Source of the DNA: Deinococci bacterium | GTDB taxonomy: Bacteria > Deinococcota > Deinococci > Deinococcales > Trueperaceae | DNA length: 42,595 nt | Assembly: GCA_030149325.1 (NCBI GenBank) | Contig: JASBRS010000061.1 | Location: forward strand, 1-42,595 | Reading direction: 5' to 3' | Shown: in pieces, positions 4,773 through 7,459 of the stretch | How the letters are laid out: the number at the start of each line of letters is the position of its first letter | Numbering within the stretch: position 1 is the first letter of the stretch | Made by a program: the position numbers and the translations under genes | The notes under the pieces: model-generated | The model's input: only the letters and a program-made list of their open reading frames with translations | What the model was told of the DNA's origin: nothing | Database searches by the model: none

Positions 4773-5450
4773 GTGACCGTCGGAGCGCTCGGCGCCGCCT
4801 CCAAGCGCAGCTTCTGGCATCGCCTGGTCCGCCTCAACCTGGGCCTTGCGGCGCTGGGCCTGGGCATCGCGTTCATGCTCGACGCCGGCATCGGCTTGGG
4901 GCCGTGGACCGTCTTCCACCAGGGCGTCAGCCTCGTCACCGGCCTGAGCTTCGGCCGTGCCCTGCAAGGCGTGGGGCTGGTCGTGCTGCTCCTCAGCGTG
5001 GTGCTGACGCGCACGCGGCCGGGCCTGGGGACGGCCCTCAACATGCTGCTGGTCGGGCCGTGGGTCGACGCCTTCCGGGCCCTGCCCGGCTTCCCGCAGG
5101 CGCACGGCTACGTCGGCGGCATCCCGGAGTTCCTGCTCGGCCTCACGCTGCAGGGGCTCGGTACCGGCCTCTACATCGCCGCTCGCTTCGGGGCCGGGCC
5201 GCGCGACGGTCTCGTCCTGGGGCTCGCTCGGATGCTGCGCCTCAGCGTGCGCCTCACGCGCACCGGGCTCGAGCTGGTGGTGCTGGCGACCGGCTGGGCG
5301 ATGGGCGGCCAGGTCGGGCTCGGCACGGTGCTGTTCGCGTTGGGCATCGGGCCGCTGATGCAGCTCTTCCTGCGGGCGTTCGCGACACGAGCCTCCGAGG
5401 CCGACCCTGCTCCGTCAGGCCTCGGGGTCGAGCCCATCCGCCGGGAGTGA
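4773..5450 (+). CDS. YczE/YitT-type integral membrane protein
   Basis: 225 residues with five to six hydrophobic segments. The N-terminal region LGLAALGLGIAFMLDAGIGLG followed closely by GPWTVFHQGVSLVTGLSFG matches the YczE group of membrane proteins (AGIGLGPWTVFHQG core). A second related half, GTGLYIAARFGAGPRDGLV, follows near residue 130, showing the internal duplication typical of this family. Biochemical function is unknown in the family. GTG 4773 is chosen because translation from it gives the family N-terminus and because of the TAGAGT -10 six bases upstream. Its last 36 bases overlap the 3' end of a small gene on the other strand. Confidence 0.8.
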   Translation: MTVGALGAASKRSFWHRLVRLNLGLAALGLGIAFMLDAGIGLGPWTVFHQGVSLVTGLSFGRALQGVGLVVLLLSVVLTRTRPGLGTALNMLLVGPWVDAFRALPGFPQAHGYVGGIPEFLLGLTLQGLGTGLYIAARFGAGPRDGLVLGLARMLRLSVRLTRTGLELVVLATGWAMGGQVGLGTVLFALGIGPLMQLFLRAFATRASEADPAPSGLGVEPIRRE

Positions 5451-5606
5451 CTCCAGGTGGACGGCGAGCTCGGCAACGTCCGAGAAGTAGCGCGTCTCCC
5501 TCGTCGCCACGTTCAGCAGTGCCGCGCGGAAGGCGGGCGAGCGACCGTGCTCCTGCTCGGTCCAGATGCGGAGTACGTAGGTTCGATGGTCGTCTTTCGA
5601 CGTCAC
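5415..5606 (-). CDS. small conserved-looking protein of 63 residues
   Basis: The reading frame gives a compact protein with the pattern TYVLRIWTEQ, then FRAALLNVATRETRYFSD and a final helix AELAVHLESL. This resembles the short bacterial proteins with a strand-strand-helix layout often seen as Y-L-R-x-W ... W/F-R-A-x-L ... T-x-E-R-x-F. GTG at 5606 has GGAG 8 bases upstream and begins the conserved part; upstream codons are unlike protein. Convergent with, and overlapping by 36 bases, the membrane gene ending at 5450, and 68 bases downstream of the lipoprotein gene on the same strand. Role unknown; the family resemblance is from memory and not checked. Confidence 0.6.
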   Translation of the reverse strand: MTSKDDHRTYVLRIWTEQEHGRSPAFRAALLNVATRETRYFSDVAELAVHLESLPADGLDPEA

Positions 5607-5674
5607 AGTCGACGCTCCGATGCGGGGGTCGGACCGTAGGAACGGTCCGACCCCGAGCGAGAGCCGTGCGTACG

Positions 5675-7381
5675 TCAGGGCAGGCAGCCTTGCGTAGGCG
5701 TGGTGTTGACGGACAGGTACTGGTCGTTGGAGGTCGAGGGCTGGGCGCTCACGTCCCAACAGATCGCCTTGTCCGGGCTGTTCTGGAAGATGCTGTTGTT
5801 GATCTGGACCCCGGAGACCCGGGTGAAGACCTCGCCTGATCCGGAGCTGTCCGCATGTTCCACAACGACGTAGTTGAGGATGTCGCTACCACTGGAGAGA
5901 TCTATCCCGTTCCAGGTGCTGCCGGGCGCTCCCGTCGTGAACGTGATCATCGAAGCCGAGGATCCGCCGTCCGCGTTCAGCGTTCCGCTCGAGCTCACCG
6001 TGAACGTCGTGTTCATGGCGACCTGGACCTGGGTCCCCTGGGCGATCGTGAGGGCCGCATCGACCGAAGGTGTGCCGTCGACGTAGTAGGGGTCGGCGAG
6101 ATGCTTCCACGTCTGAGCGTGGGAAAGGGATGAATCGAAGACCTCGACCCGCTCGTCGCCGTTGTTGAGGTAGGTGCTCGTCGGGTCGAGCGCACCGGCG
6201 CCGTCCATCGTCACGCTGACCGGGTAGCTCACGTTGTTGCTGTAGGTGTTGGCCTGCAAGGAGAGGTCCGGATAGACGGTGGAGGCGTCGAACGCCAGCC
6301 CCATCGAGGCGCTATGGTCGATCACGCTGTGCTTGAGGGTGAAGGGGACGCCGCTGGCAACATCGATCGCTGCGCCCAGCCAGCTCCCGCTGCCGCCGGC
6401 GTGGCTGACGGTCGCGTACTCGAGATCCCCGCTCGATCCGGCGTGGAGGTTGATGCCTCCCCAGGTAGCGGGCACGCTGGAGCCGGGCGAGACGGCACCC
6501 TCGAAGGTGATCCCGGCCGCAGGCGTACCGACGGCCGTGAGGGCCACGGTCCCCCCGGTCGAAGCGTTGACGTCCATGTACGTACCCTGCGTGAACTGCA
6601 GGTCCGAGCCCGGCGCGAGCGTCAAGGACGCGTTGACCGACACGAACCCATCCACGCGATAGGGCGCCTTGAGGTTCCCCCAGGTCTGGGCGAGATCCAC
6701 CGATCCCCCGAAGACCTCGACGGCGTTGTCGGCGTTGTTCGTGTACTGACTCGCAGGGTCCAGGGCGCCGACGGCGTTCGCCGACAGACTCACAGGGAAG
6801 CCGTCCAGGTGATCGAAGGTGTTGGCCTGGAGCGTCAGGTCGGCGATCGAGCCACCGGCGTCGACAGCGAGCCCCATCCCGAGGCCGTAGTCGAGGATGG
6901 AGTTCCGCAACGTGAACGGGATGCCTGAAGCCACCCACAGGGCCGTGCCGTTGCCGGCGTTGGTGCTCCCGGTGTTGCGGATCTCGACGTACTCGAGGTC
7001 GTTGTTCGCGCTGCTGGAGTAGACGTAGATGCCCGCCCAGAAGCCCTTCACGTCGTTGGCGCCCTTGAAGACGATCTCACCGCCCGAAGCGGCGGTACCG
7101 ACCGCGGTGAGCCAACCTCCGGGGTTGACGTTCATCAAGCTGTCCTGCTTGAAGATGATCGTAACGCCGGGCATCAGGGTCAGCGGCGCGTTGACGTCGA
7201 CGTTGCCGGCGGGAGCGTAGCAGCCCGGGGCTAGCGAGGTCGCGGTATCGATGCTGGCGGGCAGCGCGGCGCACAGACCGCCCCCGCCTCCGCCGGCACC
7301 TGGGGACACGGGCGAGCATGCGGGCAGAGCGGCGAACACCGCCAGGCTGGTGATCAGAAGCAGAGCGAGCCTCTTCTTCAT
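5675..7381 (-). CDS. lipoprotein of three beta-helix-type repeats
   Basis: 568 residues. The N-terminus MKKRLALLLITSLAVFAALPAC is a lipoprotein signal, with the lipidated cysteine in the LPAC box, then a GAGGGGGG linker. The rest is three copies of a roughly 170-190-residue module. Each starts with a variant of VDGxxSVNAxLTLxPG, continues through LTAVGT, a WxGI strand, a DLEYVxxxHAG strand, an ASGxPFTLxxSxxD strand and LSLQANTY, and ends near TWxxLxxPYxVDG; the third is degenerate and truncated. Such Asn/Gly-rich short strands suggest a right-handed parallel beta-helix exposed on the cell surface. Carbohydrate or surface binding is only a guess. ATG 7381 has AAAGGAG 5 bases upstream. A PhoB-like regulatory site precedes it. 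Confidence 0.85.
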   Translation of the reverse strand: MKKRLALLLITSLAVFAALPACSPVSPGAGGGGGGLCAALPASIDTATSLAPGCYAPAGNVDVNAPLTLMPGVTIIFKQDSLMNVNPGGWLTAVGTAASGGEIVFKGANDVKGFWAGIYVYSSSANNDLEYVEIRNTGSTNAGNGTALWVASGIPFTLRNSILDYGLGMGLAVDAGGSIADLTLQANTFDHLDGFPVSLSANAVGALDPASQYTNNADNAVEVFGGSVDLAQTWGNLKAPYRVDGFVSVNASLTLAPGSDLQFTQGTYMDVNASTGGTVALTAVGTPAAGITFEGAVSPGSSVPATWGGINLHAGSSGDLEYATVSHAGGSGSWLGAAIDVASGVPFTLKHSVIDHSASMGLAFDASTVYPDLSLQANTYSNNVSYPVSVTMDGAGALDPTSTYLNNGDERVEVFDSSLSHAQTWKHLADPYYVDGTPSVDAALTIAQGTQVQVAMNTTFTVSSSGTLNADGGSSASMITFTTGAPGSTWNGIDLSSGSDILNYVVVEHADSSGSGEVFTRVSGVQINNSIFQNSPDKAICWDVSAQPSTSNDQYLSVNTTPTQGCLP

Positions 7382-7410
7382 GGCGACTCCTTTCGTACGT
7401 AGACGGTCGG

Positions 7411-7459
7411 AGCCTAGCGAGACCGGCGTTATTGGAGCGTTATCGGAGCGTTGTCGGTC
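7411..7459 (-). promoter_or_regulatory. promoter with three 11-bp direct repeats (OmpR/PhoB-type site)
   Basis: Read on the minus strand, 7459-7427 consists of three contiguous 11-mers: GACCGACAACG, CTCCGATAACG and CTCCAATAACG. Ten bases after the last comes a -10 element TAGGCT (7416-7411), and about 30 bases further the ATG of the beta-helix lipoprotein. OmpR/PhoB-family regulators bind 11-bp direct repeats that replace the -35 region about 10 bases upstream of -10, exactly this geometry. The regulator is not in the window. Confidence 0.6.

Follow-up and report, generated by a model that had tools for sequence, protein, structure and literature searches.

Upstream of a lipoprotein gene in a 42,595-nucleotide contig of the Trueperaceae (the window, by which we mean the whole stretch of DNA analysed), three 11-mers stand end to end in front of a -10 element, raising the question of what kind of regulator reads them. 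An initial annotation made from the sequence alone held that an OmpR/PhoB-type response regulator binds the repeat, and that the lipoprotein is switched on by a two-component signal such as phosphate or envelope stress. If the reading set out below is true, such an 11-bp tandem before a -10 is not in itself a Pho box.

The box, its operon and its recurrence

On the minus strand the arrangement reads GACCGACAACG-CTCCGATAACG-CTCCAATAACG-CCGGTCTCGC-TAGGCT, with CCGGTCTCGC a spacer of 10 bases, followed by 29 bases and then the ATG at 7381. The outer, third 11-mer GACCGACAACG (7449..7459, minus strand) was read from the sequence and is matched at 3 mismatches, whilst the predicted upstream operator half CTCCGATAACG (7438..7448, minus strand) and downstream half CTCCAATAACG (7427..7437, minus strand) were identified both by reading and by pattern searches. 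The -10 element TAGGCT (7411..7416, minus strand) lies 10 bp after ATAACG, and a likely ribosome-binding site, AAAGGAG (7387..7393, minus strand), precedes the start codon; transcription would begin near 7404. The inner two 11-mers are identical at 10 of 11 positions, the outer and middle ones at 8 of 11. The repeat unit is a heptamer plus a 4-nt spacer with an 11-bp period (GATAACG-CTCC-AATAACG), as in a SARP operator, and the tandem occupies the place of the -35, which is equally the layout of a PhoB/OmpR box. Reading confirmed the three contiguous 11-mers ending 10 bases before TAGGCT, and for the inner pair with its -10 the composite RATAACG-N4-RATAACG-N10-TAGNCT (≤3 mismatches) matched once in the window and in none of 100 dinucleotide shuffles. 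Its parts provided weak evidence: a single 11-mer gave 18 matches at ≤2 mismatches vs. 11.6 expected (3 of 100 shuffles reached 18), and a search combining a single half with the -10 (2 mismatches) gave 19 matches vs. 16 in controls. Overall, the repeated 11-mer before the lipoprotein gene looks like a real promoter switch.

The proposed target gene (5675..7381, minus strand) encodes a 568-aa lipoprotein with internal repeats and a lipobox LPAC; here and below, lipoboxes, signal peptides and the DegT, phoU and histidine-kinase genes are named by inspection, unless a family match is given. It has no Pfam or NCBIfam family, and its earlier description as a beta-helix protein was left unconfirmed, since no family matched and the single-sequence structure model was unusable (mean pLDDT 38.8). 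Homologues occur in 14 of the 39 genomes of the family (f1, probably Trueperaceae), its own included, and no relatives were found in named genomes. Downstream, a 13-bp perfect hairpin lacking a U-run (5625..5654, minus strand; folding z -4.8), possibly an attenuator or mRNA end, separates it from a GTG-started gene for a 63-aa protein (5415..5606, minus strand). The small protein has no Pfam or NCBIfam match, and was assigned by a custom HMM to a family with the signature ‘VLRLW...F...L..YL’ that recurs next to SARP genes across the order.

A search of the 3.04-Mb genome for ATAACG-N5-ATAACG-N10-TAGNCT (≤3 mismatches) returned four matches vs. none for the reversed-pattern control, and loosening the -10 (≤1 mismatch) returned the identical four sites, again with no controls. 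They lie 22, 26, 29 and 52 bp upstream of an ATG, and all four genes encode secreted proteins (signal or lipobox by eye): a 164-aa signal-peptide protein on contig C51, a 485-aa lipoprotein on C4 with a stretch just above the Pfam cut-off for glucodextranase domain B, the 568-aa window lipoprotein on C17 and a 604-aa lipoprotein on C16. TAG[GC]CT at the same spacing is present at 4/4 sites, which were retrieved by a pattern that includes it, and the 10 bp from the hexamer ATAACG to the -10 agrees with the short fixed distance of a SARP operator, although the exact figure, vs. the 8 bp quoted for the SARP family, depends on how the repeat is framed. Similarly, 8 of 8 half-sites in the four-gene set are TAAC, the search pattern itself being biased to TAAC. 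The outer third 11-mer, in the form seen in the window, is absent by eye at the other three sites, and the C4 site has an additional, more distant AGTAACG (by eye).

Across the order, the composite (≤2 mismatches) was present in 38 of 111 genomes, with 182 matches vs. 12 for reversed-pattern controls, the latter in 7 of 111 genomes. It was found in all 22 genomes of g27–g29 (g29 being Meiothermus, as named records show) vs. 2 of 27 in g30 (probably Thermus). We inspected eight loci with homologues of the window lipoprotein, from seven of the 13 other homologue-bearing genomes. By eye, six of these loci had an 11-bp tandem in the corresponding position, in most cases built of different half-sites (TTGACG-CCCCG-TTGACG-N10-TACCGT in L106, for instance). 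No tandem was seen by eye at L120 or L122, and L105 and L118 had a poor -10 (by eye). The layout therefore recurs across homologue loci and the word varies, such that of the anticipated conservation of the 11-mers before orthologues, the arrangement held and the half-site word mostly did not. One match (L005, genome G012) was set aside, as it lies in front of a glutamyl-tRNA-synthetase-like gene and lacks a -10 that fits (by eye). TAACG boxes also occur before a DegT-type aminotransferase-like gene (by eye) in eight g29 genomes (L068, L070, L071, L073, L077, L079, L083 and L084), which may bring the synthesis of cell-surface sugars into the regulon.

Boxes beside SARP genes

Genes with a BTAD domain were detected in 109 of the 111 genomes. 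The window's own genome has six PF03704 (BTAD) matches, two of them of SARP-AAA-TPR type (C60 and C16), and one, on C70, that looks like a TPR false positive. Contig C17, which holds the window, has no BTAD match, so the operator here does not adjoin a SARP gene as it does at other loci, such adjacency being usual, not obligatory. In six Meiothermus genomes, picked for motif and BTAD coordinates that lay close to each other, one or two TAACG boxes stand downstream of a SARP-AAA-TPR gene of ~1090 aa, in front of GGGGG-lipoproteins. The same arrangement was found in five of eight loci chosen by the SARP protein alone, three of which (L253, L256 and L258) are, judging by their length, the same contigs as the earlier L109, L113 and L112; the box was absent at L255, L259 and L260, the contig of the last ending ~360 bp after the SARP gene. 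BTAD genes also lie near homologues of the window lipoprotein at four of the eight inspected loci (L105, L106, L107 and L121).

The 63-aa family was detected at E ≤ 0.01 in 17 of 60 SARP loci (15 at E ≤ 0.001) vs. none of 40 response-regulator loci. These E-values are optimistic as the HMM, also applied to the 40 controls, was built from matches in the same SARP loci. A rule-based tandem box stood immediately before the small gene in 10 of the 17 loci, an imperfect box was seen by eye in L151, L157 (period 12), L183 and L187, and no box was found before it in L158, L161 and L186. Scanning the 60 SARP loci for a repeated NNNACG pair before TANNNT gave 16 matches at period 11 vs. 0–2 for any of the remaining periods between 7 and 16, and when the gap was scanned from 4 to 19 in the same loci, 16 of 17 matches lay 9–10 bp from the -10. 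Boxes at SARP loci often lie 5–10 bp ahead of the start codon. Response-regulator loci gave four period-11 matches in the same layout, and under a looser rule a box was found in 11 of 60 SARP vs. 5 of 40 response-regulator loci, samples that are unmatched (60 loci over the order vs. 40 in the family). Layout alone was therefore rejected as a discriminator.

Among the 18 g29 genomes, the number of boxes followed the number of BTAD matches (rho 0.82), and the association persisted after correction for genome size (partial rho 0.51; p 0.02 by permutation); genome size alone gave rho 0.79. A second operator word was observed in the window's own genome, TAGACG-N5-TAGACG-N9-CAGGCT (L125:3864-3895, minus strand; C16), between the SARP gene with helix NLRR and a gene of the small family.

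Half-site words and the recognition helix

Written as the hexamer b1b2b3ACG, the half-sites are near-identical within a locus, where the box rule requires 5/6 agreement, and different between loci. We compared base b2 with recognition-helix residue X (Q in the NLRQ helix of C60) using unique helices, and attributed every box to whichever SARP in the locus lay nearest. Where X was Q, b2 was T in 18 cases, mixed in one and not T in two, vs. T in four and not T in 13 for other X (Fisher p = 1.9e-4; 38 unique helices, including loci fetched for the ATAACG motif). In loci chosen by BTAD alone, the corresponding counts were 12/1/2 for X=Q and 1 T vs. 12 not T for other X (p = 1.7e-4, 28 helices), the helices being phylogenetically non-independent in both statistics. 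Two exceptions had Q and not T (L153, and a single SARP of the three at L136) and four had T and not Q (L105, L124, L129 and L170), with L162 mixed; L142, in which X=V accompanies ATAACG, was left out of the counts since no ORF was called.

The rule was recorded before 20 further BTAD loci were fetched. Eight of these had a box, including three with X=Q (L234, L237 and L242), all of which had T. The L237 helix is however that of the discovery locus L174, whilst L242 is close to L181/L169 and carries another SARP as well (X=P), which leaves L234 as the one success that is clearly new. In L249 (X=K) the rule fitted at one half only, and for the boxes of L233, L241, L245 and L246 (X=A, P, L and A) the rule made no prediction. 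Seven held-out loci with X=Q had no rule-based box (L235, L236, L239, L240, L244, L247 and L250).

Residue X of C60 lies 14 residues past the conserved helix-2 W, as T88 follows W74 in AfsR, and it is by this counting from the W that X was equated with T88, a PDB sequence search not having returned AfsR. T88 contacts a base in AfsR (PMC10936776), and the covarying base lies ~2 bp from that base when counted from the -10. At L121:5767 (plus strand), a SARP with the helix VHQ, in which H replaces R before X, accompanies the half-site TTGAGG in place of an ACG ending, which suggests, from this single case, that the residue before X reads the C.

Candidate reader and competing explanations

Sequence comparison points to the window box probably being the operator of a SARP-type activator (an OmpR-like winged helix plus BTAD), with C60 as the likeliest reader. 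This candidate is a 1107-aa SARP-AAA-TPR protein (L126:2100-5617, minus strand; G000:C60) with the recognition helix NLRQ, a class found mostly beside TAACG/TGACG boxes, and of the genome's own SARP-AAA-TPR pair it is C60 that has X=Q, C16 having X=R. Its nearest SARPs are L155, L167 and L115 (50–52% identity). Boxes were found at L155 (a CTAACG pair) and at L115 (CTAACG/ATAACG), and none at L167. As none of the four own-genome sites adjoins a SARP-AAA-TPR gene, and no TAACG box lies within the 10 kb around C60, only helix class and closest relatives point to C60 as the reader. Directly downstream of the C60 gene is a lipoprotein gene of subtilase-like type (by eye), and the two have no intervening TAACG box.

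Binding, activation, reader and signal are our inference, and would run as follows. Two SARP protomers would bind side by side on the GATAACG-CTCC repeats, replacing the -35 and bringing RNA polymerase to the TAGGCT -10; by analogy with AfsR (PMC10936776), they may keep sigma region 4 and polymerase in place at a promoter whose -35 is poor. Aligning the T of ATAACG with T-38/T-27 of the afs box would put the -10 at -12 to -7. The lipoprotein would thereby be switched on, perhaps together with the downstream 63-aa gene, whose protein may be a product or a modulator, and the signal would enter through the AAA/TPR part, which may sense ATP/ligand or a partner, in place of a phosphorylated receiver.

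Such an operator has known counterparts. The afs box of Streptomyces AfsR consists of two 11-bp direct repeats over the -35, with 8 bp to the -10 quoted for the family (PMC10936776), and the window box shares this pattern, its repeat pair covering the -35 region and ending a few bp short of the -10. AfsR is a SARP-NOD-TPR protein, similar to the C60 candidate, and its helix residue 88 touches a base, the equivalent position being the one that covaries here. Unlike the AfsR system of Streptomyces, the predicted operator described here occurs in Deinococcota, has the half-site TAACG and precedes a surface lipoprotein and a 63-aa gene, not an antibiotic cluster. PimR-type SARP-LAL operators likewise have heptamers with 4-nt spacers in two or three repeats, the PimR binding unit being a 22-nt box of two heptamers, but the heptamer is CGGCAAG and the main operator controls pimM and does not overlap the -35 (PMC5930380).

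The geometry noted in the initial annotation fits any tandem-binding OmpR-fold activator, SARPs included, and it is the choice of PhoB/OmpR as its reader that we consider unlikely. Pho boxes have an 11-bp spacing. They are also direct repeats overlapping the -35 and are bound in tandem by OmpR-fold domains (PMC3348028), and in the f1 family boxes of the same layout, CTGAC[GA]-N5-[CA]TGAC[AG]-N9/10-TANNNT, precede phoB-like genes (L195, L213 and L226), with a CTGACG pair before CATGCT at a phoU-like gene (L232). These Pho-type half-sites differ from the TAACG words in reading CTGAC[GA], and PhoB is itself a response regulator. Half-sites of the two classes can coincide, given that AfsR and PhoP sites overlap in Streptomyces (PMC10972967), and PhoB half-sites come as close as one base to those of the window, so cross-binding is possible. 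However, the genome's own phoB box, CTGACG-N5-ATGACG-N9-TATCAT (L195:2767-2798, plus strand; contig C72), differs from the TAAC half-sites of the four-gene set, weakly so since its nearer half ATGACG is one base from ATAACG; this comparison speaks weakly against the initial proposal. The phoB gene itself (best NCBIfam model TIGR02154, E 2e-68, below that model's cut-off) is divergent from a phoU-like gene and precedes a histidine-kinase-like gene, as judged from the translations. The 40 response-regulator loci, seven of them from the own genome, yielded no TAACG pair, the general rule also returning a TTTACG run in L207. Nor does the distribution of the box follow this regulator: a PhoB relative is present in 27/27 g30 genomes (best E 7e-62 to 3e-69 in 26 of them, and 3.1e-45 in the incomplete G103), yet the box occurs in 2/27. 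Box number did correlate with response-regulator matches across the 18 g29 genomes (rho 0.62, counting the matches listed, at most 26 per genome), but not once genome size was removed (partial rho -0.03). PhoB/OmpR was demoted from first choice on three grounds: the word of the genome's own phoB box, the distribution in g30 and this partial correlation. The two-component signal proposed for the lipoprotein is left unsupported, as boxes cluster with SARP genes, half-sites track the SARP helix and box counts follow BTAD.

A receiver-SARP fusion, with two-component input and SARP output, would reconcile part of this, since the initial annotation would then be correct about the two-component input and only the DNA-binding family would differ. 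The 400-aa BTAD protein on C4 has a receiver domain and shares its contig with one of the four sites, at a distance of 5–6 kb. Receiver-SARP proteins are reported from Deinococcus deserti, and Truepera radiovictrix has a relative with 41% identity (PMC3564903). The helix of the C4 protein, DNHLHVLVSRLRK, falls outside the NLRQ class, however, and box partners at other loci are mostly NLRX-type SARP proteins, which makes such a reader quite improbable. More improbable still is a promoter of ordinary or alternative-sigma type that lacks a dedicated activator and owes its repeats to chance or structure: the -10 TAG[GC]CT is of ordinary sigma-70 type, but four sites of fixed period and spacing with no controls argue against chance, and one sigma factor would not give half-sites that are near-matched within a locus and different between loci.

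Returning to the SARP-type activator, SARPs are known mainly as switches of antibiotic clusters in Streptomyces (PMC10972967), and among the titles listed from an open-licence full-text library none concerned SARP operators in Truepera or Meiothermus. The regulator class is already known, whilst its use in this lineage and the covariation of operator and helix are apparently new. A broader generalisation, which we put forward tentatively and which may well prove too wide, is that Deinococcota employ paralogous SARP-AAA-TPR activators with their own operator words, that the helix residue corresponding to AfsR T88 largely sets the word, and that each activator controls a ~60-aa protein, all of these belonging to one family, and surface lipoproteins. 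The words TAACG, TGACG, GGAACG, GCAACG, GCCACG etc. would then represent parallel, insulated cell-surface signalling channels, with the window operon as the target end of the TAACG channel. If true, operator words readable beside each regulator would form a natural data set for DNA choice by the OmpR fold, and control of these surface proteins, including an undescribed small-protein family, would become testable. At L124:1413-4523 (minus strand), a Meiothermus-type AAA-TPR protein with a C-terminal SARP-like domain has two TAACG boxes upstream of its gene, an arrangement that possibly reflects auto- or cross-regulation.
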